This document shows positions 41,775 to 63,041 of a stretch of DNA of 64,000 nt, piece by piece. The notes under the pieces are model-generated. The model was given only the letters and a program-made list of their open reading frames with translations. It had not been told where the DNA came from and ran no database searches. The position numbers and the translations under genes are program-made. How positions within the stretch are numbered: the first letter of the stretch is position 1; each line of letters starts with the position of its first letter. Origin of the DNA: Symploca sp. SIO3C6 (GTDB taxonomy: Bacteria > Cyanobacteriota > Cyanobacteriia > Cyanobacteriales > Coleofasciculaceae); the NCBI GenBank assembly GCA_010692425.1, contig JAAHHJ010000008.1, positions 1 through 64,000 of the forward strand, in the 5' to 3' direction.

Positions 41775-44700
41775 ATGAAATCACGTATACGAGGAATTTG
41801 TTTATTACTCGCTATTGTTCTCCCTGCAATTGCATCCTGGAGAGTACAGGCGCAAATTACACCTGAATCAGGAGTTAACGGCACTGGTACTAACGTTAAC
41901 CTCGAAGGTGATCAATTTAATATTACTGGGGGAAGCTTAGGGGGAGAAAATCTCTTTCATAGTTTTGAACAGTTTGGTCTTGAAGAAGGTCAGATTGCTA
42001 ATTTTATTCTTAACAACCCAGATATTGAAAATATTTTAGGTCGGATTGTTGGCGGTGATCCTTCAGTTATTAATGGTATTCTCCGGATTACTGGAGGTAA
42101 TGCCAATCTCTTTTTAATGAATCCAGCTGGGATTGTTTTTGGGCCAAATGTAAGGCTAGATCTACCTGGTTCCTTTACTGCCACTACTGCCACCGGTATT
42201 GGTTTTGGTGAAGATAATTGGTTTAATGCTTTTGGTGCCAATGATTACGAAAATTTGGTTGGCACTCCCAATACCTTTATCTTTGAACAAACTGAATCAA
42301 GAGCAATTATCAATAGAGGTAATCTCGAAGTTAAGGAAGGGCAAAATTTAACTTTAATTGGTGGCAGTGTACTCAATACAGGAGGTATTATTGCACCTGG
42401 AGGAAATCTAACTATTTCTGCAGTTACTGGTGAAAATTTAGTGCGCATTAGTCAGCCAGGAAGTTTACTAAGTTTAGAGATTGAACCTCTCAAGACAGCC
42501 GAAGGAGAGAATCAACCTATTCGACTTGAGGAGTTACCAAAATACCTTACCGGGAGCGAGGAGGATGTTAAAAATTTAACTGCTAATCCAGGTGATATTG
42601 ACAGTAGTGAAGGGAGAATCAGTTCTATTTCTAAAACTGGTAATGGTGGAGAAATTAACTTGAATGCCACTAATCAAATTACTACAGGGAGTATTGATTC
42701 TAGTTCTATAAATGGTGATGGTGGTAGCGTTAGGCTTAAAGCTGGTGGTGATATTGAAGTTGACTATATTAATGCTGAGGGTGGAGATAACGCCATAGGT
42801 GGTGAAGTTGATATTGAAACAGAAGGCTTTTTCAGAGCCACTGATACCTTCACCGCTTCTAATGGTTCAGAAGCTAGTATTTCCAATATCGTCGGTATTG
42901 GTAGCGGTAGTAGTGATATTACTATTAAACATGATGGTAACGAAGAAACCCCTTTTATAGTTGGGGATGCAACAGAAAATGGTACAGCGGGCTCAATAAT
43001 TACTAATGGTAATTTTGAGCTTGTGCCAGTTGAATCTCTTATCGAAAACGAAACTGAACCACCACCCACTGACACCTTTGATCTACTGAACGAGTCCTTA
43101 ATACCTGAAGACGTAAATGACGTGTTTAATCTCAATGAGATTAATGATTTAACTACTGACAGTCAAAATAACAATGACTCCGTAATCTCTGATTTAACTA
43201 CTGAAAATCAAAATAACAATGACTCCGTAATCTCTGATTTAACTACTGAAAATCAAAATAACAACACCTCCGTAATCTCTGATTCAACTACTGAAAATCA
43301 AAATAACAACACCTCTACAATCTCTGATTCAACTACTGAAAATCAAAATAACAACACCTCTACAATCTCTGATTCAACTACTGAAAATCAAAATAACAAC
43401 ACCTCCATAATCTCTGATTCAACTACTGAACAAATTTCTGAATCTAAAAAAGAAACAGACACAGAATTACCAACAGAGACAACATCCCAACTAGCGCTAA
43501 GGGAATGCAACCAAATAGGAGCTAACGTTACAGTACTTAATGACAACTCCTCCGGCGAATTAGAACAATTGAGAGCAATACCAACTAGCACTTCAATAAC
43601 AGCTTTGGAAAGTTACTGTCGCTCTCAAGCAAGCTCTAGCACTAAGCGTAATCGTCGTCCAGTAATCACCTATGAAGAATTTGATCCCAATAGTAATAGA
43701 CCCGATATCGCGGCTCAACACTGGCACCGATTTTTGGCTATTGCTCAAAGAAATAGTGATCGCAATCAGGAAAGAAAGGCACTAAGAAATCTTGGCCTCT
43801 CTTACCATTCCTTAGCCGAATATCCTAAAGCTATAGAATACCATCAACAAAGCTTAAAACTGGCACTGGAATTAAATGATCGTTATGGGGAAGTAACAGC
43901 TTTAGGTTCTCTGGGTAAAGCTTACACTAATTTAGGAAACTATACTGAAGCAATTAATTACCATCAACAGAGTTTAAAACTGGCACGAGAGCTTGGTAGC
44001 AAGAGAGCGCAGGCAGCAATTATAGGAAATCTAGGAATTACCTATCATTTCTTAGATAATTATCCCCAAGCTATAGAATACCATCAGCAACACCTGAAGA
44101 TTGCACGGGAAATTGGCGATCGACAGGGAGAAGGGGCAGCACTAGGAAATCTCGGCATCGCCTACCGTGCCCTAGGAGACTATGCCCAAGCTATTGACTA
44201 TTATCAACAACAATTAAGTATTGCCCAAGCAATTAGCGATCGCCAAGGGGAATCCAATGCTTTAGGTAATCTAGGTAATGCTTACCAAATCTTAGGTGAG
44301 TATGTAAAGGCAATTGAATACCATCAGCGTACTTTAGCAATTAAGCAATACATTGATGATCGTCAGGGTGAAGCCAGGGTATTAGGCAATCTGGGAAATG
44401 CTTACGAAGTTGTAGGCGACTATAACCAAGCCCTAGAATATTACCAACAAGCTTTAACTAAAGTGCAAAAAATTGGCGATCGCCATACAGAAGGCTCTAT
44501 ATTAAGAGCCTTAGGAGTAATCCAAACTGACTTAGGCAATAATATCAAAGCTATTAGTTACTATCAGCAAAGTTTAGAAATAGCACAGGCAATTGATGAC
44601 CGCCAAGGTGAAGCTAGCAGTCTCAATAAAATAGGATTTGCCTACTATCTGCAAGGTGATTTCAAACAAGCCTTGGAGTTAACTCAACAGAGTTTGGCAA

Positions 44701-46265
44701 TTACAAGGCAATTAGGCGATCGCCGTACTGAAGTTGCAGCTCTCGGCACTTTAGGACTAGTTTACGAGAAACTAGACCAAATACCAATAGCGATTGATTA
44801 CCATCACCAGAGTTGGGCAAAGGCACAGGAACTTGGTGTTAGAGGCGGAGAATGGGGAGCTTTAGCCTATCTCGGCAATGCTCTATTTCAAAAAGGTAAT
44901 TTCAAACAAGCAGAGGAAAAACTGCGAGACTCTCTGGAGATCTTAGAATCTCTTCGACCAGGATTAGATGACCTACAGAAAGTATCGCTTGTTGACACCC
45001 AAATTCAAACCTATGCCCTACTACAACAAGTCCTAGTCGCCCAGGGAAAAACTCAAGCCGCTCTCGAAATTGCAGAGCGAGGTAGGGCAAGAGCTTTTGT
45101 AGAGTTACTCTCAAAACGATTATCTCCTGAGGCGGCTACTAAATCTGCTATCAATCAAGCTCCACCAACGATAGAGGAAATTAAAACCATTGCCAAACAA
45201 CAGAATGCCACACTAGTTCAATATTCGATTGTTCCGGAAGAGTTTCTGCTGCAAGGCAAACTGCGAGGCAAACCATCCCAGCTTTATATTTGGGTAGTTC
45301 AGCCCAGTGGTGAAGTAGCATTTCGCCAAGTTGATCTCAAACAGTTGCCACAGCAAAATACTTCCTTAAAAAAGTTAGTCTTAGATAGCCGTAACTTCCG
45401 CCGTCAAAGAAGCTCAGAGGCTGCCAGACAGAAACTACATCAACTGCTAATCGAACCAATTTCCGAGCTTTTGCCTACCAACCCAGATCAACATGTCATC
45501 TTCATTCCTCAAGACTCTCTATTCCTGCTACCCTTCCCAGCATTGCAAGACTCCTCAGGAAAATATCTAATTGAAAAACACACTACCTTAACTGCCCCAG
45601 CGATTCAGGTGTTGGAGTTAACCCGTCAACAGCAGCAGCGCCTCAAGAAACGGTATCGAGAGCCAATTCAGGGTGACAATGCCCTAGTGGTGGGCAATCC
45701 TCTGATGCCCGGAAATTTAATGCAGTTACCAGGTACAGAAGTAGAAGCCAAGGAAATCGCTCAACTTTTGAACACTGAAGCGGTGATTGGGAAAAAGGCA
45801 ACCAAAGTAGAAATATTACAGCAACTGCCTTCAGCAAGGCTGATTCATTTAGCTACCCACGGCTTACTTGATGATATGGATACCTTAGGGATGCCAGGTG
45901 CGATTGCCCTTGCTCCTTCTCCTGAAGATGATGGCTTTTTGAGGGCAGGGGAAATTTTGGATTTAAAACTAAATGCCGAATTAGTAGTACTTAGCGCTTG
46001 CGATACAGGCAGGGGTGAAATTACCGGAGATGGGGTAATTGGACTATCTCGTTCCTTAATTGCTGCTGGGGTTCCTAGTGTCCTCGTCTCCCTGTGGGCG
46101 GTACCAGATGCCCCTACTACTGAGTTAATGATTCAATTTTATCGGCAAATGCAGCAAAATCAAGACCAAGCTCAGGCACTGCGTCATGCCATGCTAAAGA
46201 CTATGCAAAAACACCCTAATCCCATTAGTTGGGCAGCATTTACACTAATTGGTGAAGCAGAATGA
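41775..46265 (+). CDS. TPS (haemagglutinin-like) domain - TPR - CHAT protease fusion
   Basis: A 1496-residue multidomain protein. Seen in order: a signal peptide (about 1-27, ending RVQAQ); a filamentous-haemagglutinin N-terminal two-partner-secretion domain (about 28-240) with the cyanobacterial hallmark NANLFLMNPAGIVFGPN; a Gly/Asn-rich beta-helix-like region to about 400; six perfect-period 15-residue Asn/Ser/Thr-rich repeats (458-547); a linker with two Cys; at least ten tetratricopeptide repeats (about 650-1080); and a C-terminal CHAT domain (about 1180-1496) with the His1362 (HLATHGLL) and Cys1409 (VVLSACDTGRG) dyad intact. TPS domains target proteins for Omp85-type export, while CHAT-TPR proteins are usually intracellular. 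The fusion suggests a secreted or surface peptidase-like effector. One uninterrupted frame supports a real fusion. Confidence 0.9.
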   Translation: MKSRIRGICLLLAIVLPAIASWRVQAQITPESGVNGTGTNVNLEGDQFNITGGSLGGENLFHSFEQFGLEEGQIANFILNNPDIENILGRIVGGDPSVINGILRITGGNANLFLMNPAGIVFGPNVRLDLPGSFTATTATGIGFGEDNWFNAFGANDYENLVGTPNTFIFEQTESRAIINRGNLEVKEGQNLTLIGGSVLNTGGIIAPGGNLTISAVTGENLVRISQPGSLLSLEIEPLKTAEGENQPIRLEELPKYLTGSEEDVKNLTANPGDIDSSEGRISSISKTGNGGEINLNATNQITTGSIDSSSINGDGGSVRLKAGGDIEVDYINAEGGDNAIGGEVDIETEGFFRATDTFTASNGSEASISNIVGIGSGSSDITIKHDGNEETPFIVGDATENGTAGSIITNGNFELVPVESLIENETEPPPTDTFDLLNESLIPEDVNDVFNLNEINDLTTDSQNNNDSVISDLTTENQNNNDSVISDLTTENQNNNTSVISDSTTENQNNNTSTISDSTTENQNNNTSTISDSTTENQNNNTSIISDSTTEQISESKKETDTELPTETTSQLALRECNQIGANVTVLNDNSSGELEQLRAIPTSTSITALESYCRSQASSSTKRNRRPVITYEEFDPNSNRPDIAAQHWHRFLAIAQRNSDRNQERKALRNLGLSYHSLAEYPKAIEYHQQSLKLALELNDRYGEVTALGSLGKAYTNLGNYTEAINYHQQSLKLARELGSKRAQAAIIGNLGITYHFLDNYPQAIEYHQQHLKIAREIGDRQGEGAALGNLGIAYRALGDYAQAIDYYQQQLSIAQAISDRQGESNALGNLGNAYQILGEYVKAIEYHQRTLAIKQYIDDRQGEARVLGNLGNAYEVVGDYNQALEYYQQALTKVQKIGDRHTEGSILRALGVIQTDLGNNIKAISYYQQSLEIAQAIDDRQGEASSLNKIGFAYYLQGDFKQALELTQQSLAITRQLGDRRTEVAALGTLGLVYEKLDQIPIAIDYHHQSWAKAQELGVRGGEWGALAYLGNALFQKGNFKQAEEKLRDSLEILESLRPGLDDLQKVSLVDTQIQTYALLQQVLVAQGKTQAALEIAERGRARAFVELLSKRLSPEAATKSAINQAPPTIEEIKTIAKQQNATLVQYSIVPEEFLLQGKLRGKPSQLYIWVVQPSGEVAFRQVDLKQLPQQNTSLKKLVLDSRNFRRQRSSEAARQKLHQLLIEPISELLPTNPDQHVIFIPQDSLFLLPFPALQDSSGKYLIEKHTTLTAPAIQVLELTRQQQQRLKKRYREPIQGDNALVVGNPLMPGNLMQLPGTEVEAKEIAQLLNTEAVIGKKATKVEILQQLPSARLIHLATHGLLDDMDTLGMPGAIALAPSPEDDGFLRAGEILDLKLNAELVVLSACDTGRGEITGDGVIGLSRSLIAAGVPSVLVSLWAVPDAPTTELMIQFYRQMQQNQDQAQALRHAMLKTMQKHPNPISWAAFTLIGEAE
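43146..43430 (+). repeat. Coding minisatellite, 45-bp unit
   Basis: Six complete 45-bp units begin at 43146, 43191, 43236, 43281, 43326 and 43371, then a partial unit follows. Each encodes a 15-residue block of the type SDSTTENQNNNTSTI. Units 1-2 carry the NNNDSV variant and units 3-6 the NNNTS variant. The tract is in frame within the TPS-TPR-CHAT gene. Confidence 0.97.
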
Positions 46266-51821: not shown

Positions 51822-51824
51822 GAT

Positions 51825-51830
51825 GAGGTG
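51825..51830 (+). promoter_or_regulatory. Shine-Dalgarno site favouring the second pixG start
   Basis: GAGGTG lies 4 bases before the ATG at 51835, while the ATG at 51823 overlaps the dispersed repeat and has no such site. Confidence 0.5.
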
Positions 51831-51834
51831 CCAA

Positions 51835-53088
51835 ATGATATCTAACAAAATATACAGTACAGAAGAACTTGCAAAAACCATTCATACTTGCAGTCAAGAG
51901 CAATTTACAGGTCTTTTGTTAATCGAAAAACTCCAAGGACAACGGTGGAATTTGTATTTCCACCAGGGTGCTTTAATGGCAGGTTCTAGCAAAGAATATG
52001 CCGCTCGTCGCTGGTGTAGACAACTCTATAAACACTATCCACAATTATCATTCGAGGTAGTTTCTTACTGGTCAGAACAGCTTCAGAATGGCAATTACCA
52101 CTTCTTTGCAGAACTCTTGACCAAGGGAACATCTAGGGGTGAGGAAATGGCACCAGTTATTGCTAGCAATACCACAGAAATCCTGTTCGATATCATTCAA
52201 CAGGGGAAGCAACTTTGCCAGAATTCAGTAAACCCCCTCATCTGCAAGCGCATTCTTGAAGATACCATCAACTCAAAATTAATTGTCATGGAAGCCTCCC
52301 AGGCTTGGCAGCAGGCAATCGAGGCTTGGGAGGCTTGGCACAAGGCTGGTTTTGCACATTTTTCGCCCAACTTGGCTCCTGAGATCTCGCAAGTTCAGCA
52401 ACTGAGACAGCATACCTCAGTATCAATCTACAACAATTTAAGTAAATTACTTGATGGAAATCTAAGTTTAAGAGATCTAGCTCTCAAGTTGAAACAGAAT
52501 CCATTGCCCCTAACTCAATCGATTATGCCCTATATCCATAAAGGGTGGATCAATTTAATTGAGGTAGAAGATAGTTGCTTGAACCTGGGTGTCGATACAG
52601 TTACTAGACCTAAACTCAGTATAACTACTAACCCCCAACCAACACCTGCTAATCGAACCGTAAGCAAAACCAAACCTACAACAAATGCACCTTTAATAGC
52701 TTATATCGATGACAGTTCAATTGATAGTCAGAGAATGAATCTTATTCTCACCCAAGCTGGTTATCGGTATCTCAATATTCAGGACTCGGTAATGGCGCTG
52801 CCAACTTTGCTAGAGCAGAAACCGAAGCTAATTTTTTTAGATTTGGTCATGCCCATTGCCAACGGGTATGAGATTTGTGCGCAAATTCGCCGCGTTTCAA
52901 TGTTTAGAGAAACACCTGTAATTATTCTCACCGGTAATGATGGCATTGTAGACAGAGTCCGGGCAAAAATAGTTGGTTCTACGGGTTTTTTGGCAAAGCC
53001 AATTACTCCAGAAAAAGTAATAAAAACTTTACAGGATTATCTATCAGTACAAAAACCTATTTCATCCCGGATAGAAAACACAAGTTGA
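51835..53088 (+). CDS. pixG: PatA/PixG-type response regulator
   Basis: A 417-residue regulator (421 if begun at 51823). Seen: an N-terminal PatA/DUF4388 domain (about 5-115, with QFTGLLLIEKLQGQRWNLYF and the helix after HQGALMAGS), a helical middle (about 120-265), a disordered Thr/Pro linker, and a C-terminal receiver domain (about 285-405) with phospho-acceptor Asp in LIFLDLVMPIANGY and Lys in GFLAKPITP. PixG of Synechocystis and PatA of Anabaena share this layout; in taxis systems PixG is a response regulator acting on type IV pili. It is the first gene of the cluster, 167 bases before pixH, with a heptamer STRR in the gap. Confidence 0.92.
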   Translation: MISNKIYSTEELAKTIHTCSQEQFTGLLLIEKLQGQRWNLYFHQGALMAGSSKEYAARRWCRQLYKHYPQLSFEVVSYWSEQLQNGNYHFFAELLTKGTSRGEEMAPVIASNTTEILFDIIQQGKQLCQNSVNPLICKRILEDTINSKLIVMEASQAWQQAIEAWEAWHKAGFAHFSPNLAPEISQVQQLRQHTSVSIYNNLSKLLDGNLSLRDLALKLKQNPLPLTQSIMPYIHKGWINLIEVEDSCLNLGVDTVTRPKLSITTNPQPTPANRTVSKTKPTTNAPLIAYIDDSSIDSQRMNLILTQAGYRYLNIQDSVMALPTLLEQKPKLIFLDLVMPIANGYEICAQIRRVSMFRETPVIILTGNDGIVDRVRAKIVGSTGFLAKPITPEKVIKTLQDYLSVQKPISSRIENTS

Positions 53089-53255: not shown

Positions 53256-53627
53256 ATGACTACAGTATTTTTAGTTGAAGATAGCTTGACAGACACAGAG
53301 GTAATGACCAATTACCTCAAACAGGCAGGTCTAATGGTGGTCAGCACCAACAATGGTGATGATGCCCAAAGCCAAATCCAGTCACAAAAACCTGATTTGG
53401 TAATTCTTGATGTGATTTTGCCTGGAAAAAGTGGTTTTGAACTGTGCCATCAACTCAAAACTAATTCCCATACTAAGGCAATCCCAGTGGTAATTTGCTC
53501 AAGTAAAGAAACTGAAGCAGATAAACTTTGGGGTTCAATGTTGGGGGCTGATGCTTATATATCTAAGCCAGTAGACCAACTTCAATTAATGCAAACTATC
53601 AAGCAATTGACTGTTGGTAAATCCTGA
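53256..53627 (+). CDS. pixH: CheY-like response regulator PixH
   Basis: A 123-residue stand-alone receiver. Seen: acidic residues in VFLVEDSLTD, phospho-acceptor Asp53 in LVILDVILPGKSG, Ser/Thr in VICSSKE and Lys in AYISKPVD. No output domain exists, so it acts like CheY, by protein contact or as a phosphate sink for PixL. In Synechocystis PixG and PixH act differently in positive and negative phototaxis. The start has no clear Shine-Dalgarno: an STRR reaches 8 bases before the ATG. pixI follows after 128 bases. Confidence 0.92.
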   Translation: MTTVFLVEDSLTDTEVMTNYLKQAGLMVVSTNNGDDAQSQIQSQKPDLVILDVILPGKSGFELCHQLKTNSHTKAIPVVICSSKETEADKLWGSMLGADAYISKPVDQLQLMQTIKQLTVGKS

Positions 53628-53755: not shown

Positions 53756-54310
53756 ATGTTGAACTCACTTGATAGTGCCCTCACGACTACTAGTCTTGAT
53801 CCTCTCAGTTTGGAGCCACTACCTCCAGAAACTCGCCAGCGATTGCTTCGCTTTCCTCTTGGTTTGCATGATAGTGCGCTCTTACCCCTAGAGGAAATTG
53901 TGGGAATCATCACCGTGGAACTCAACCAAATTCTACCAGTTCCGGAAGTGCCCGGTTGCGTTTTGGGCATTTGCAATTGGCGGGGAGAAATGCTCTGGCT
54001 TGTGGACTTCAACCATTTAGTTGGTTGTCCTCCTTTATATCAACTCAGAAAAGCTTTAGCACCTCCCTTGGCGATAGTGGTTAAGGTTAATGATCAGCCT
54101 TTGGGCTTAGTGGTGCAGCAAGTTTATGACATCGAGTTGCATGAATTGCAGCACCTACAACCAGCAACTGTAGGTTTATTTCCTTCCCAACTTATACCTT
54201 TTATCCTTGGGATTCTACCAGGAGGCAATGGCCCTGTTTTGAATATTACAGCCATTACTCAGTGTCCCCTCTGGCAAATTCATCGGGGAGAGGAAGAGAG
54301 GGGGAGATAG
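53756..54310 (+). CDS. pixI: CheW-like adaptor PixI
   Basis: A 184-residue CheW-domain protein (about 30-170) coupling receptor and kinase. Seen: LLPLEEIVGIITVELNQILPVPEVPGCVLGICNWRGEMLWLVDF split across the two SH3-like subdomains (motif positions about 42-85), and PLGLVVQQVYDIELH. Its C-terminal residues EEERGR come from a GGGGAGA-type STRR that starts inside the gene at about 54286, so the natural C-terminus has been replaced or extended by repeat sequence. The pixJ gene follows after 152 bases, with the rest of the STRR in the gap. Confidence 0.92.
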   Translation: MLNSLDSALTTTSLDPLSLEPLPPETRQRLLRFPLGLHDSALLPLEEIVGIITVELNQILPVPEVPGCVLGICNWRGEMLWLVDFNHLVGCPPLYQLRKALAPPLAIVVKVNDQPLGLVVQQVYDIELHELQHLQPATVGLFPSQLIPFILGILPGGNGPVLNITAITQCPLWQIHRGEEERGR

Positions 54311-54462: not shown

Positions 54463-57400
54463 ATGACCAATCTCAGCGATACTAACCAATTCAATGATGA
54501 CCATCCTGTAGCTACTCAAGAGCTAGCCTTAGACTGGCAAGAGGTTGAGGAGTTGGAGCCAAAACCACAGAACTCAGAGTTAAAATCTGAACCATTAGCG
54601 AGTAAAACTAATGGCAATCTCACACCAACACCGTCCAAGACTGATTTTACTTCCGAGCAAGCTTTAGAATTAATTAGCTCTGTCAAAACTGATCTTGAAC
54701 AGACAGGATATCTCAGTAAAGCTGAAGTCCAAGATAAATTTCAATTACTGGAAGAGTGGGTTCAAAACCTGCCTAAAGGATATCTGGCAAAACTAAGTAT
54801 TACTACTGAGCAAAACTTGAAGCGTGAACGACAGTGGCTATCAAGTATTGCTAGCCAGATGCAGCAAGCCAAGAATATTGAGGGGCTATGTGCAACTACA
54901 GTTAAGGAGGTTCGCGCCTATCTAAAGGTAGAGCGAGCCTTGATCTATCGCTTCGATTCTGAAAACCAAGGTTTAGTTATAGCTGAATCTATTGAAACTG
55001 GTTATACTCCCACTCTAGAGCAATCCCTGCCAGCCCTAGCCTTTGGTGGTGAAACTCGGCAGCAATACCAGCAAAGGGAAGTAGTAATTCTAGAGCAAAT
55101 CTACCAAAAGTCTCCCAGTCCCTACCAAGTCCAACTGCTCAAACAGTTTCAGGTTAAAGCTAGCCTCAGTCTGCCTATTTTTCTAGAGGGTAAAGTCTGG
55201 GGCTTACTGGTTGTGCAGCAATGCTCTGGTTTATCGCGGAAATGGCGGGAATCTGAAATTAGTTTGCTCTTTCAAATTGTCGCTCAACTGAGATTATGTC
55301 TCAAACCACTGAAATTCCGCGCCCAACTAAAAAAGCAGATTAACCGGGAAAAGTTCTTAGCCCAAGCCTTTGAAAATATCCGCACCCTCAGTGACTTGCC
55401 CGCCATTTTAGATGCCACTACCTACCAAGTCAGAAAGCTACTGGAATGCGATCGCGCCCTAGTATATCGTTTTAAACCAGACTGGAGTGGGGTCTATGTG
55501 GCAGAATCTGTTGCTCGTAGCTGGTTGCCACTGATGGAGCAACAGTATAAAGACCCATACTTGCAACTTGATGTGATTACCACTTCTAAGAAATGTAGAG
55601 TTTATGAGCTGATGCTGCCAGCCTCAGATACCTACCTGCAAGAACTCCAAGGTGGAAACTATGCTAAGGGTAAAAACTTTACTAGAGTTGATGACATCTA
55701 TGCTCAGGACTATGACCCTTGCTACTTGGAAACTCTAGAGAAATACCAAGCTAAAGCTTACATGGTAGTTCCTATTTTCTATAAAAATAAACTCTGGGGT
55801 ATGTTAGGAGTCTATCAAAACTCAGGCCCCCGTTTATGGGAAGATGACGAAGTACAGTTGCTCAGTTTAGTTGCCTCTCAAGTTGGTTTAGCTGTGGAGC
55901 AGACAGATTACGTCACCCAACTGCAAGCCCAAACCAAGGAAAAGGCGCAAGCAGTGGAGCGAGAAAGAACCTTAACTGCCTTGATTGAGAAGGTGCGCAG
56001 GTCTTTCGATATCCGCAGCATTTTCCGCACCACTTGCCAAGAGTTACGGAATATGACCAAAGCCGACAGAGTGGTTATCTATCGCTTTAATGATGACTGG
56101 AGTGGGCAGTTTTTGGGCGAATCTGTTGGCGCTGGCTGGACACCACTCATTCAAGTCCAGCAACAAGAAACTACTCTGACAGTAGATACAATAACTTACG
56201 ATAGCTGCACAATCAGGGAGATGACTTCTACCTCGACAGTGGATCCAGATACTTACTTGCAGAAAACTGAGGGTGGGGACTATGTCAGAGGCGCTCAATT
56301 TAAGCAGGTTGATGATATTTATGGGATGAATTTTTCCCCCTGCTACCTCGAAACCCTAGAGAGATTTCAGGCAAAAGCCTATCTGACAGTGCCGATTTTC
56401 CAAGAAAATAAGCTCTGGGGGTTATTAGCCGCTTACCAAAACTCAGAACCTCGTCAGTGGCAGGAATCAGAGGTAAGATTGATGCTCAAGCTGAGTAATA
56501 CCCTAGGAGTGGCGATTCAGCAGTGGGACTACGTGGAGCAAGTGCAGGCGCAATCGATCCAGTTCAAAAAAATTGTTGAGATCGAAAAGGCGGTAGCCAA
56601 AATCAGCTCTAAGCTCTTAAAGTTTCCCAAAGTAGAACTCATACTCCATTCTATCAATCGAGAAGTTCGGCTGCTACTAAAATGCGATCGCGTTGCCATC
56701 TATCGCTTTGAGCCTGATTGGAGTGGTAAGTTTATTGCTGAGGACATAGCCAAGGGTTGGGTACCCCTAGTGGGACCTGGTATTGAAACTGTTTGGGAAG
56801 ATACTTACTTACAAGAGACCAAAGGAGGTAGGTATAGCAAAGGCGAAAGTTTTGCAGTTGATGATATCTACAAGGTCGGTTACTCTGAATGTCACCTGGA
56901 AATCCTAGAGCAATTTGAGGTCAAAGCCCATGTCCTAGCACCAATTTTTGTTGAGGGCAAGCTCTGGGGCCTCCTAAGTGTCTATCAAAACAGTGGTCCT
57001 CGCCAGTGGCAAGAGTTTGAAGTCACGGCTATAACTCAAATTGCCCTACAGATAGGTACGGCTTTGCAACAGGCCAACTACCTAGAGCAGGTGCAGCAGC
57101 AGTCTGAGCAAGTGACCAGATTAGCACAGCGAGAAACCAACTTTATCAATCTACTTTACAAAACTGGACAGCGGATTGCTGAGCGCTTACAACAGAAAAA
57201 CCTCAACATCAATAATCTCTTCCGCACCACTAACCAAGAACTCCGACAACTGCTACAAACTGACCGAATTGCAGTCTATCGCTTCGAGCCTGATTGGCGT
57301 GGGGAAATCATCATTGAAGATGTCGGCAGTGGCTATGTCAAGCTAGTAGGGACTGAAACTGGCAGTTTTGCTGATCCTATCTTACAGGAAACCCAAGGCA

Positions 57401-58713
57401 GCATTTATCGCAAAAACGAAACCCGTGCCGTCAGTGATATCAGCACAGCTATTGAGCTAACCTTCTCCAGGGAAAGGCTAGAGGAATGGGGCGCAAAAGC
57501 CTATATCATTGCTCCCATGTTTAAGAATGACAAACTCTGGGGCTTGCTGATGACTTTCCAAAATAGCCAACCTCGTGACTGGGAGGAAGGTGAGGTTAAC
57601 CTGCTGACACAGATGGCGACGCAGTTGGGCATTATGTTACAGCAGTCTGAATACCTCGAACAGATTCAACAACAGTCTCAGCAACTGCAAAAGGCAGCAG
57701 AAAAGGAAAAAGCGGACAAAGAGACTTTACAGCAAGAGGTAATCCAGTTATTGACAGCCGTAAGACCAGCCCTAGATGGGGATCTCACCGTCCGGGCTCC
57801 TATTACCGACAACGAAGTGGGTACAATCGCTGCTGCCTATAATAATACCCTGCAAAGTCTGCGCAATATTGTTATCCAGGTGCAGGAGTCCTCTCGACAA
57901 GTTGCTCAAACTTCTCAAAAAAGTGAATCCTCCATTGCTGGTTTGTCTGGCCAAGCCCAGCATCAGTTTATGGCTCTGGGGATGGCTCTGGAGCGCATTC
58001 AGAAGATGGTTGATTCTACATCTGCTGTCGGCAATAGCGCCCAACAGGTGGAAACTGCCCTCCAACAGACTCATCAGATTGTCCAACAGGGCGATGTGGC
58101 AATGAATCGCAGTGTCGATGGTATTCTCGAGATTCGAGAAACAGTGGCCGAAACCAGTAAACGGATCAAGCGTTTGAGTGAATCTTCCCAAAAGGTTTCC
58201 AAAGTGGTTAACTTAATCAGTAACTTTACAACTCAGACGCAATTACTAGCACTTAACGCCGCGATTGAGGCTACTAGGGCTGGTGAATATGGGCGTGGTT
58301 TTGTTGTCGTTGCTGATGAGGTGCGCTCTCTGGCACGTCAGTCTGCTGATGCTGCTACAGAAATTGCGCAATTGGTGCAGGAAATCCAGCAAGGTACAGC
58401 TGAGGTATCAACAGTGATGGAGAAGGGTATTGAGCAAGTTGCTCAAGGTACCAATCTAGTCACTGATGCCCGCCAGACTCTCAATGCTATTGTCGAAGCT
58501 ACAGCTCAAATCAATCATTTGGTGGAAGGTATTACTAAGGCAACTCAGGTGCAGAATCAAGAGTGCCAATCAGTGACACAAACGATGAATGAGGTGGCAG
58601 CAATTGCTAATCAAACTTCTGAGGATTCTATTGAGATGTCTAACTCTTTTAAGGAGTTGCTGACAATGGCCCAGAATCTCCAGACTAGTGCAGACCAGTT
58701 TAAGGTCAACTGA
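54463..58713 (+). CDS. pixJ: PixJ-like chemoreceptor with five GAF domains, three bilin-type
   Basis: A 1416-residue methyl-accepting receptor. Seen: a disordered N-terminus, five GAF domains (about 125-285, 300-490, 505-690, 705-875, 890-1060), a HAMP-like segment (about 1090-1140) and an MCP signalling hairpin (about 1140-1416, tip around [19 protein letters not shown]). GAF2, GAF3 and GAF4 carry the cyanobacteriochrome bilin-attachment cysteine: Cys420 (DPCYLE), Cys627 (SPCYLE) and Cys810 (SECHLE). GAF4 also has WEDTYLQET, as in red/green types. GAF2 and GAF3 have an extra Cys (378, 582) in an insertion. GAF1 and GAF5 lack the cysteine. No membrane segment is visible, so the receptor looks soluble. 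Confidence 0.93.
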
Positions 58714-58778: not shown

Positions 58779-59014
58779 AGATCAGAAGGTTGATATGGTC
58801 ATGGTCAGAAGAGTTAAGCTGTCACGCATTTTAATTGGGTATAACTAGTGAATCAGATAGTCGCACTACCAGTATTCACAATTATTGACAATTAGGTTTA
58901 AATGACAGTTTATACCGTTTCACTCTATCATCAGTTATTTGTCTACTACTATATTTATTGCTTATTGCTTAATACTTATTGCTTACAAAGTATTGGTGTC
59001 AAATTAAATTACTA

Positions 59015-62000
59015 ATGAATAATAACCATAAAATTCACGAACAAGGTCTCCACTACTTTCTCCAGGAAGCGCCGGAACTATTGCGAGTGTTAGAACAAGA
59101 TTTGCTTAGTCTCAGAAAAGACTGTAGTCTCAAAAAAATTCACAACCTGATGCGAATTACCCATACCCTTAAAGGCGCTGCGGCTAGTGTTGGGTTAGAG
59201 ACAATCAAAAGTGTGGCTCACTCCTTAGAGGATATTTTCAAAGCCCTCTGCCAACCCGATTTATCAATTGATTCTGAAGTTGAAGCCTTGCTTTTTGAGG
59301 GTTTTGAATGTCTGCGCCTACCTTTAACAGCCCAACTGACAGGAGGACAAGTTAATGATTCTGAAGTGCTTGATCGCACGGCTGTAGTTTTTGCTCAACT
59401 GCAAGACAGGTTAGGGGACTTTTTTAGTCATGAAACTCATCTCCCTTCCTCGGTAGAATTGGGCTTTGATGTAACTCATTCTATATTTGAAGTTGGGGTT
59501 ACTCAGCGCTTGAAGGAAATTGCTGAAGCTCAGCGACATGGGGATTTACCAAAGTTGGCTACCAATCTCAGGACTCAGGCGGAAGTTTTTCTCGGCTTAG
59601 CTGAATCCCTAAATTTAAACGGATTTAAAGCCATTGCCCAAGCCACAATCGCCGCGCTCGACAACCATCCAGAGCAGTTAGAAACTATTGCCAGACAGGC
59701 TTTATCAGATTTTTTAGAAGGACAGGCGGCTGTGCTATCTGGCGATCGTGACCAAGGGGGTGAACCTTCAGAACTCCTGCAAAAACTAAGTGGGTTGCCT
59801 AGCACTATTACTGAATCAGTTATTAAGCAGCATACTCAATCCTTTGTTCCAAATTCTTATTCAGAAAAGTCTCAAAATTTACTAGTTGATACTCCAGAAT
59901 CTGCAACTCCACCAGAACATAACTTGGTGAGTAATAAAACTGACTCGGGCTTGGTTGTGAGTAATTTAGGTGATTCACAATTGAGTGTGGAGGTTTCGGC
60001 ACAGTTTGATGAAAATGAATCAGAAAATGACTCAACTGTTGACTCCCTCCTAGAAGCAATTTGGGGAGAATCAGAGGAATCCCATTCCCAAGATACTAGC
60101 GAATCTCTTGAAATCCCGGTTGAGGGCGAAGAAGTTCTATTTATAGACTCCATTACCAATGATTCTTTGTCAGGGGAAATAAATCAAAAATCACTACTGG
60201 ATTCGACCAGCAATCAAGAACAATTAACTAATGATCAATCACCAATCTCTACACCAAACTATGTTTATCCACCTCCGGCAGTGCGAGTAAATGTTGAACA
60301 TTTAGAACAGCTAAATTATTCAACTGGAGAATTACTAACCAATCAAAACCGCCAGTTGCTTCAGAGTGAACAACTCAAGGCTGAAGTAAAAGTCCTAATT
60401 GAGCGTCTTGATCAACATCGGCAACTACTGACTCAACTCCATGACCTATCTGAAAGTCTGTTAACTTTGCCAGAACGAAGATTTAATAGACAATGGGGAA
60501 TGAAACAGAAATATCTTTCCCTCTCTAAGCGTAAAATAGGCGAGAGAGCAGGTAAAATCCAGAGCCGGAAGGAAGCTTTTTCACCCCTGGTGGTGAGTGA
60601 AAGTTCCCCTTTGTCTCATCAAAACTCTCCATTCCCAGAACACAGCGAGCATTTTGATTCCCTGGAGCTACAGCGCTATAGCGAAGCCCAAATCCTGATT
60701 GAGTCAATTCTCGAAGACACTGTGCAACTAGCAGAAGCAGCTGATGCTATTGATCTATTTGCAACAAGTTCTCATCAGACTCTCGAAAAACAAAGTCGGC
60801 TATTAAACAGTAGCAGGGACGCTATAATCGAAGCCCGGATGTTACCACTGGGAGAAATTTTTGGTCGTTTTCCCCGTGTCCTAGAGCAGTTGGAAATTCT
60901 GCACCATAAATCAGTAGTACTGAAGCTTGAAGGTACGGAAGTCTTGGTGGAGAAATTAGTAGCCCAAAAGCTTTATGAACCTCTATTACACTTAGTTCGC
61001 AATGCCTTTGACCACGGAATTGAGTCCCCTGAGTATAGGCAACAGCAAGGCAAACCGAGTCAAGGTCAGATTTCCATTTGTGCCTACCATCGGGGTTCTA
61101 ACCTGATGATTGTAGTTAGGGATGATGGTCAAGGGTTAAATTTTGAAGAGATTGCTCAAAGGGCAATAGAGCGTCAACTGATTAGTCATCAACAGGCTAG
61201 TACTCTCGATGAGACTCAGCTCAAGAATTTACTATTTGAACCAGGCTTTTCTACCAACTCTGTAGTCAATGATCTTTCCGGGCGAGGTATGGGTTTAGAT
61301 GTGGTACGTACCCAGTTGCAAGCCCTCAATGGCTCAGTGACTGTTGATTGTGAACCCGATAAGGGTACAACTTTCCTGCTCCAAATTCCCCTGAGTCTGA
61401 CAATTGCCAAATTGCTCCTGTTTCAGGCTGGTGAACACATTTATGCCTTACTGGCAGATACAATTGAGCAAATTCTCATACCAGCGCCCACTCAGATGCA
61501 GTATTGGTCAGAGGGCAAAGCTCTACGTTGGGGTAAGGGTGTTGATGAACGACTGGTTCCCATTTACCAACTTGCCAAAGTCCTTGATTATCACTCTCAG
61601 GCTGGGGAACCCTTGCTTTCTCCTAAGTTGCAACCCTTTGTTAATCAAGAGCAATCGAACCCAGTTCTGATTGTGCGCTCTGCCGAACAGCTTCTGGGCT
61701 TAGAAGTTGACCAGTTGTTGGGTGATCAAGAATTGGTCATTCGTCCTTTGGGGGCAATGATTGCTCCACCTAAGTTTGTCTATGGAGGCAGTATTATGGC
61801 TGACGGCAGGCTGACATTGGTACTCGATGGCTCAGTATTTATGCAGTACTTGTTTGAGCAGCAGACTAATACAACTAGTAATCACTTCGCTTTCAATCAG
61901 CCTGAGACCAGACAGCATAACTATACTGCTAAGACAACATATTACACCCATGCTTACCGTGATGTAGACAATGCCACGCCCCCTAGACTCTCTTCGGCTC

Positions 62001-62449
62001 AACAGCAGCAATTACCAGCTGTAACTAATGCTCAGTTACCAGCAGTTGCCCAACATGTCCCACAAAGGTTTGACAAAACTATTCTCCTAGTAGATGACTC
62101 AATCACCGTGCGCCAAACTCTGGCTATGACTCTCAAACAATCTGGCTATCAGGTTGTACAAGCTAGAGATGGTTATGAGGCAATTGAGCAAATTAGGCAC
62201 CATCGACATATCGACTTGGTGATCTGTGATATCGAAATGCCTCGTATGAATGGGTTTGAGTTCCTTAAGCACCGCCAGCAAGACCCACATTTAGCAGAGA
62301 TTTCAGTGATGATGCTAACTTCCCGGAGTGGCAATAAACATCGCTTGTTAGCTAAGGAGTTGGGGGCAACAGACTATATTACTAAGCCCTATCTAGAACA
62401 CCAATTTTTGCTAAAGGTGGCGGAGGTATTACAGAACAAATGCAACTAG
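59015..62449 (+). CDS. pixL: CheA-like hybrid histidine kinase PixL
   Basis: A 1144-residue kinase when begun at ATG 59015; a TTG frame reaches 58979 but adds 12 unlikely residues from AT-rich repeat-like DNA. Seen: an N-terminal Hpt domain with phospho-acceptor His50 in RITHTLKGAAAS, a second Hpt-like or linker region, a long acidic linker (about 285-425), the dimerisation helices, an ATPase domain with LLHLVRNAFDHGIE, VRDDGQGL and SGRGMGLDVVR, a CheW-like domain (about 780-920), and a C-terminal receiver with TILLVDDSITVRQ, Asp in LVICDIEMPRMNGF and Lys in YITKPY. It receives input from PixJ through PixI and phosphorylates PixG and PixH. Confidence 0.93.
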   Translation: MNNNHKIHEQGLHYFLQEAPELLRVLEQDLLSLRKDCSLKKIHNLMRITHTLKGAAASVGLETIKSVAHSLEDIFKALCQPDLSIDSEVEALLFEGFECLRLPLTAQLTGGQVNDSEVLDRTAVVFAQLQDRLGDFFSHETHLPSSVELGFDVTHSIFEVGVTQRLKEIAEAQRHGDLPKLATNLRTQAEVFLGLAESLNLNGFKAIAQATIAALDNHPEQLETIARQALSDFLEGQAAVLSGDRDQGGEPSELLQKLSGLPSTITESVIKQHTQSFVPNSYSEKSQNLLVDTPESATPPEHNLVSNKTDSGLVVSNLGDSQLSVEVSAQFDENESENDSTVDSLLEAIWGESEESHSQDTSESLEIPVEGEEVLFIDSITNDSLSGEINQKSLLDSTSNQEQLTNDQSPISTPNYVYPPPAVRVNVEHLEQLNYSTGELLTNQNRQLLQSEQLKAEVKVLIERLDQHRQLLTQLHDLSESLLTLPERRFNRQWGMKQKYLSLSKRKIGERAGKIQSRKEAFSPLVVSESSPLSHQNSPFPEHSEHFDSLELQRYSEAQILIESILEDTVQLAEAADAIDLFATSSHQTLEKQSRLLNSSRDAIIEARMLPLGEIFGRFPRVLEQLEILHHKSVVLKLEGTEVLVEKLVAQKLYEPLLHLVRNAFDHGIESPEYRQQQGKPSQGQISICAYHRGSNLMIVVRDDGQGLNFEEIAQRAIERQLISHQQASTLDETQLKNLLFEPGFSTNSVVNDLSGRGMGLDVVRTQLQALNGSVTVDCEPDKGTTFLLQIPLSLTIAKLLLFQAGEHIYALLADTIEQILIPAPTQMQYWSEGKALRWGKGVDERLVPIYQLAKVLDYHSQAGEPLLSPKLQPFVNQEQSNPVLIVRSAEQLLGLEVDQLLGDQELVIRPLGAMIAPPKFVYGGSIMADGRLTLVLDGSVFMQYLFEQQTNTTSNHFAFNQPETRQHNYTAKTTYYTHAYRDVDNATPPRLSSAQQQQLPAVTNAQLPAVAQHVPQRFDKTILLVDDSITVRQTLAMTLKQSGYQVVQARDGYEAIEQIRHHRHIDLVICDIEMPRMNGFEFLKHRQQDPHLAEISVMMLTSRSGNKHRLLAKELGATDYITKPYLEHQFLLKVAEVLQNKCN

Positions 62450-62552: not shown

Positions 62553-63041
62553 ATGAACAATCAACAATCAACAACCCAAAAATTCATAGTTCTCAAGGTT
62601 GCTGATTATCTCCTAGCACTCCCAATTGTGGATGTACTCAAGGTGGTAAATTGCCCTGCTTCAGCTTACAGAGAATTTAAAAATATGGGGCTTGTTCAAC
62701 TAGGCAGGCATACAATTAGAGTTTTGGATTTACAGGGGCAGTTTAGCTCAGGTGATGTATCTCAAGTATCCACTAACCCTGATTTTCTGATAATTACCCG
62801 TTCTCTTGAGGGAGAATTATGGGGAATTGGAGTGCAGGAAACACCTAATTTAATGGATTTACCTTTAGAGAATATGCAAAGTCTCCCTAAGTTTGAAAGT
62901 CAGTCTGGTTTTCTTGAGTTAGTTAGTCATAGTGCTGTGGTATCTAATTCTGAAGTCACAAATACAATTTTTTTACTGGATATAAGACGGTTGCTGGATG
63001 TTATTAATAATTCCCATCGACAGTCTTTAAGTAATAAGTAA
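62553..63041 (+). CDS. CheW-like protein
   Basis: A 162-residue, divergent CheW-domain protein. Seen: KFIVLKVADYLLALPIVDVLKVV at the N-terminal subdomain (about 10-32), MGLVQLGRHTIRVLDLQGQF, and FLIITRSLEGELWGIGVQETPN. It would be a second adaptor or a coupling-protein competitor beside PixI. The first codons (MNNQQSTTQ) come from ATGAACA/ATCAACA heptamers and the last (SNK, stop) from a TAAGTAA array, so both ends of the gene are made of repeat sequence. It closes the pix cluster. The translation start could also lie further upstream or downstream. Confidence 0.8.
   Translation: MNNQQSTTQKFIVLKVADYLLALPIVDVLKVVNCPASAYREFKNMGLVQLGRHTIRVLDLQGQFSSGDVSQVSTNPDFLIITRSLEGELWGIGVQETPNLMDLPLENMQSLPKFESQSGFLELVSHSAVVSNSEVTNTIFLLDIRRLLDVINNSHRQSLSNK

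Follow-up and report, generated by a model that had tools for sequence, protein, structure and literature searches.

Two insertion-loop cysteines mark GAF2 and GAF3 of a Symploca PixJ/PtxD-like receptor as probable insert-Cys photosensors

The 64,000-nucleotide stretch of Symploca sp. SIO3C6 DNA that we analyzed (the window) encodes a PixJ/PtxD-like receptor in which two GAF domains carry a cysteine well ahead of the one expected to bind bilin. Do these extra cysteines make GAF2 and GAF3 dual-Cys photosensors of the insert-Cys subfamily, or do they lie there incidentally? As we discuss below, several lines of sequence comparison point with high probability to a PixJ/PtxD-type phototaxis receptor that has dual-Cys, insert-Cys photosensors in GAF2 and GAF3 and a red/green sensor in GAF4.

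The receptor reading frame translated with no internal stops and contained 12 cysteines, and Pfam matched an MCP signaling domain and five GAF stretches. GAF limits were taken from two half-domain models, seeded on GAF2, GAF3, and GAF4 of this receptor and refined with relatives, which we used instead of a whole-domain seed HMM that broke the domains at the loop. An assembly error as the source of this layout was considered and set aside, as the same five GAF domains are found in a genome of the same genus (G001).

Table 1. Coordinates of the receptor, its domains and cysteines, and the neighboring genes within the window.
Feature	Positions	Strand	Description
PixG-like response regulator	51823..53088	+	named by place in cluster
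PixH-like receiver-only protein (CheY type)	53256..53627	+	
PixI-like CheW	53756..54310	+	
PixJ/PtxD-like receptor ORF	54463..58713	+	1416 aa; five GAF domains and MCP signaling domain
GAF1	54832..55290	+	residues 124-276; without bilin cysteine
GAF2	55345..55887	+	residues 295-475; insert-Cys type
GAF2 insertion loop	55531..55626	+	residues 357-388; holds Cys378 at 55594-55596
Cys420, GAF2 bilin cysteine	55720..55722	+	in CYLE
GAF3	55960..56508	+	residues 500-682; insert-Cys type
GAF3 insertion loop	56146..56247	+	residues 562-595; Cys582 at 56206-56208; CTIR = CXXR motif
Cys627, GAF3 bilin cysteine	56341..56343	+	in CYLE
GAF4	56581..57057	+	residues 707-865; red/green type; VWEDTYL; Cys810 in CHLE; loop without Cys
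GAF5	57169..57630	+	residues 903-1056; without bilin cysteine
MCP signaling region	57772..58710	+	residues 1104-1416; Pfam MCPsignal match itself 1226-1381
PixL-like CheA	58979..62449	+	Hpt, ATPase, CheW, and receiver domains

A sequence-only reading of this DNA had placed bilin cysteines in CY motifs of GAF2 and GAF3 and second cysteines 42-45 residues ahead of them, and both are seen in the translation, with spacings of 42 residues from Cys378 to Cys420 and 45 residues from Cys582 to Cys627. It had also described an insertion of 15-20 residues that is absent from GAF4; the absence stands, but the size was too small, as the stretch from the N-terminal half of the domain to the DTYL motif comprises 32 and 34 residues in GAF2 and GAF3, respectively, versus 11 in GAF4 (11 also precede DPIL in GAF5), giving insertions relative to GAF4 of 21 and 23 residues. 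GAF4 was correctly said to have WEDT, the signature of red/green cyanobacteriochromes, and no second cysteine. Together with a CH motif and Phe at both of the tuning positions considered below, these features make GAF4 look like a red/green domain.

The place of the DXCF motif, whose cysteine is used by TePixJ, is occupied by DTYL in both loop-bearing domains (D389/Y391 in GAF2, D596/Y598 in GAF3), and the tyrosine excludes a DXCF-type dual-Cys identity for either. Loop Cys, DTYL, and CY all support the earlier assignment of GAF2 and GAF3 to the insert-Cys type. GAF3, in which C582-T-I-R matches the CXXR/K motif, has every sequence mark of that subfamily that we examined; GAF2 departs from it at one point, with C378-R-V-Y carrying Tyr instead of Arg or Lys. 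All four cysteines are kept in G001, where the loops are only 81% (GAF2) and 76% (GAF3) identical; the pN/pS of 0.79 for the GAF2 loop comes from 32 codons, a number too small for interpretation.

Passages of PMC5240096 describe how such domains work: an insertion loop provides a second cysteine, sitting in a "poorly conserved CXXR/K motif," that forms a thioether with bilin C10, and efficient switching requires Asp and Tyr at the DXCF place. In both proteins examined there, mutating the loop cysteine to Ala left absorption in the red or orange. By analogy with these characterized relatives, GAF2 and GAF3 would each hold a bilin, probably phycocyanobilin, through Cys420 and Cys627. In the dark, Cys378 or Cys582 would add to bilin C10 and thereby interrupt the conjugated system, leaving near-UV or violet absorption; light would turn the 15,16 double bond, usually with breakage of the second bond and a shift to longer-wavelength absorption, and longer-wavelength light would reset the domain to its dark state. 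GAF4 would act as a red/green domain, a class that includes the single-Cys domains AnPixJg2 and NpR6012g4 (PMC5240096). Signals would pass via the MCP domain to CheW and CheA (PixI, PixL) and to PixG and PixH, response regulators that direct movement. In one variant of this scheme, the second linkage in one or both domains would be stable and near-UV/blue switching would proceed without bond breakage. NpR1597g2, reported to keep its second bond, offers a precedent, but of the four insert-Cys domains that PMC5240096 discusses, three have a labile bond, and we regard the variant, which falls within the main reading and overlaps with it in probability, as unlikely.

We compared the receptor with 522 distinct GAF sequences extracted from 176 loci, most of which were collected by similarity to the GAF2-GAF3 stretch and some via an MCP domain in the source genome. 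Loops of 26 or more residues were called long and those under 18 short, and the main counts took domains with a bilin Cys, read by alignment to model columns, and with Asp or Asn at the DXCF place; short-loop domains were in addition without a DXCF Cys. (An earlier regular expression overlooked many bilin cysteines, and its counts are unused.) A loop Cys was present in 155 of the 158 long-loop domains versus 1 of the 162 short-loop domains, in a pool drawn by similarity to insert-Cys domains that supplied both sets and holds many near relatives, such that the events are not independent. The bilin motif was CY in 156 of the 158 and, among the short-loop domains, CY in 14 and CH in 146. These counts leave aside loops of 18-25 residues, GAF domains without a bilin Cys (nine of which do carry a cysteine in a long loop), and those in which the DXCF place is unaligned (3 of the 158 domains called insert-Cys). 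In an earlier pass over the first 97 loci, a loop Cys was seen in 97/100 long-loop domains and, among short-loop domains taken unfiltered at the DXCF place, in 12/131; some of the gap between 12/131 and 1/162 reflects second halves aligned in part, with the "loop" reaching into them. In a 48-row alignment of insert-Cys domains (GAF2, GAF3, and 46 of the 97 listed), the loop Cys occupied one column in all 48; the rows were picked for having this residue, and the shared column is the only informative feature.

Loop-Cys domains also include one observation of separate interest. At three loci of a single genus (g7, of the same family as the source; L049, L050, and L052), the GAF domain starting at ORF residue 608 has three candidate photo-cysteines, in the loop, at the DXCF place (DTCL), and in the CY motif, a combination found in 3 of the 155 loop-Cys domains; the matching domain of L047 has DTYL.

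A tree built without the loop, from 179 of the 522 domains (fragments, domains without bilin Cys, and near-copies were omitted) and from few columns, held 101 insert-Cys rows and needed four changes of label, at least one of them forced, versus 58.1 in shuffles. A first version, from which GAF2 had been dropped as a near-copy, held 100 such rows and needed six changes, at least two forced. Insert-Cys rows cluster in the loop-free tree, with many forks open and no single clean clade. The only firm groupings of GAF2 and GAF3 are those with the copies from the same genus; the next-nearest rows are insert-Cys domains, and the nearest row outside the genus lies at a path length of 0.98 for GAF2 and 0.61 for GAF3.

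Could GAF3 alone work as a dual-Cys sensor, with Cys378 of GAF2 making no second bond and GAF2 behaving as an orange/red domain of the single-Cys kind or switching poorly? The missing CXXR/K motif and the longer branch of GAF2 point this way; its Tyr at the third position after the loop Cys is found in just 2 of the 155 loop-Cys domains, GAF2 itself and its same-genus copy. Against this idea, 53 of the 155 have no Lys or Arg there either (the other 102 have the CXXR/K motif), PMC5240096 describes the motif as poorly conserved, and Cys378 has been kept in G001 while the loop around it drifted. On balance, we consider a single-Cys GAF2 improbable. That the loop cysteines are incidental and both domains ordinary single-Cys GAFs is hardly credible: composition (Cys at 0.85% of this protein) would place a Cys in a loop of 32 or 34 residues with a probability of 0.24-0.25 and in both loops with p ~0.06, which makes the sequence of this receptor by itself weak evidence and relatives necessary, and the difference between long-loop and short-loop relatives argues that these cysteines are not incidental.

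Structure models fit the assignment of GAF2 and GAF3 to cyanobacteriochrome-type GAF domains. AlphaFold gave mean pLDDT values of 83.6 for GAF3 and 81.6 for GAF2, with much of the loop below 50 (model residues 76-96 in GAF3; 74-80 and 84-95 in GAF2). The best PDB fold matches of the two models (best 50 of 1010 and best 50 of 1095) were AnPixJg2 and other cyanobacteriochromes, led by the AnPixJg2 entries 5zoh and 3w2z with TM scores by query length of 0.71 and 0.75 and rmsd values of 3.6-8.2. By sequence, the top structure among the best 60 of 74 matches was 6bhn, which is NpR6012g4. None of the matches listed (sequence, best 60 of 74 and 56 of 56; fold, best 50 of 1010 and 50 of 1095) was a solved structure named as insert-Cys. 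AnPixJg2, NpR6012g4, and TePixJ share the GAF fold with GAF2 and GAF3 but lack a comparable insertion in the sequence alignments displayed, and the five sequence alignments to structures that were displayed all break at the loop. In NpF2164g3, the loop is stated to change from random coil in the dark state to helix in the photoproduct (PMC5240096).

What colors might these domains sense? We placed tuning positions III and X from residue numbers given in PMC5240096, the mapping being our own, and found Tyr345/Tyr428 in GAF2, Phe550/Phe635 in GAF3, and Phe757/Phe818 in GAF4; Phe/Phe is also the pair in 89 of the 157 CH domains with a short loop. The tuning rule comes from mutants of two proteins in that source: UG1, near-UV/green, became violet/orange with Val at III plus Phe or Val at X and switched abnormally with Val at III alone, and UG2 was red-shifted by Val at III. 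Because the tuning residues of GAF2 and GAF3 are bulky and the first is not Val, both domains are predicted to have a near-UV dark state and a green or blue photoproduct rather than a violet/orange cycle. The GAF3 domains of two PtxD-like relatives (L149 and L150) differ in this respect, with Val/Phe. Green and blue are inseparable by this rule, since the GAF2 domains of the same two relatives have Phe/Tyr, the UG1 pair, yet NpF2164g2 is UV/blue and UG1 is UV/green.

The one odd feature of the receptor is its divergent GAF2. Of the 158 insert-Cys domains (14 of them unreadable at the first tuning position), two have Tyr/Tyr at the tuning positions, again GAF2 and its same-genus copy. With CXXY and this pair, GAF2 appears to be a divergent insert-Cys domain and might, although we think it doubtful, have a color pair new to the subfamily.

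The receptor sits in a pixGHIJL-type cluster, with genes for a response regulator, CheY, and CheW upstream and CheA downstream. The five genes stand in line at 34 of 45 loci (19/20 of L139-L158, 9/11 of L166-L176, and 6/14 others); among the other 11, several loci end inside the cluster, some receptors stand alone, and one (L159) is a histidine-kinase region of the source genome. Beyond the CheA gene comes another CheW-like gene, at 62553-63041 (+). Elsewhere in the source genome, we found three genes of the bilin-reductase family and, in seven other regions (L159-L165), one more insert-Cys domain, in a histidine-kinase-like protein. A GAF domain of L033 (contig C254) would also qualify under a looser rule, but its 64-residue "loop" stems from a partial alignment, and it is left uncounted. 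The closest matches of the genome that carry a name belong to Xenococcaceae. Also in the window, positions 41775-46265 (+) encode a 1496-residue protein that combines a TPS secretion domain with TPR repeats and a CHAT domain.

In Nostoc punctiforme, the closest characterized system, PtxD (NpF2164), is required for positive phototaxis and is described in PMC5812497 as having seven GAF domains, at least six of them bilin-binding, an MCP end, and CheY, CheW, and CheA genes alongside. NpF2164g2 (near-UV/blue) and NpF2164g3 (violet/orange) are both listed as insert-Cys (PMC5240096), and a neighboring pair of such domains in a receptor of this kind was thus already known. As far as these sources describe it, PtxD resembles the Symploca receptor in having insert-Cys second and third GAF domains, a further bilin GAF, an MCP end, and che genes, but the Symploca protein has only five GAF domains, three with a bilin cysteine. 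Among our relatives, 19 of 20 full-length proteins (drawn from the best matches) have at least two adjacent insert-Cys domains, as do 34 of the 77 complete ORFs with such domains, a fraction of similarity-drawn loci rather than a population frequency. Three receptors (L157, L167, and L168, from G375, G342, and G107) have four consecutive insert-Cys GAF domains. Ten of the 20 full-length relatives, all of one family (f19), have a GAF without Cys, two insert-Cys domains, and four short-loop bilin GAFs, a PtxD-like layout, in the same five-gene cluster as the Symploca receptor. Counted from the first ATG, the insert Cys of GAF3 in these seven-GAF proteins is residue 546 in L149, 549 in eight, and 560 in one; 546 is the number given for NpF2164g3, and we claim no identity of L149 with PtxD. 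Any orthology of GAF2 and GAF3 with NpF2164g2 and NpF2164g3 would be tentative, since in the tree each groups firmly only with its same-genus copy and insert-Cys rows form no clean clade.

Two near-UV/green domains of Microcoleus B353, Mbr3854g4 and Mbl3738g2, resemble GAF2 and GAF3 in their loop Cys, the Asp and Tyr of the DXCF place, and bulky tuning residues, with Phe/Tyr and Tyr/Leu, respectively, where GAF2 has Tyr/Tyr and GAF3 Phe/Phe. By the residue numbers in PMC5240096, the loop Cys precedes the Asp of this place by 26 residues in Mbr3854g4 and 14 in Mbl3738g2, compared with 11 in GAF2 and 14 in GAF3.

Judged by its sequence, the receptor adds an example to the published insert-Cys subfamily within an already described architecture, and it is a good but ordinary one, a closely similar arrangement having been described in Nostoc punctiforme. 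The suggestion that one receptor may compare short and long wavelengths is likewise not new, as PtxD is similarly arranged. The Symploca protein joins those that seem to unite near-UV and red/green sensing in one phototaxis protein, and with three candidate bilin domains, compared with at least six in PtxD (PMC5812497), it is a simpler subject for studying how a chemoreceptor sums several colors.
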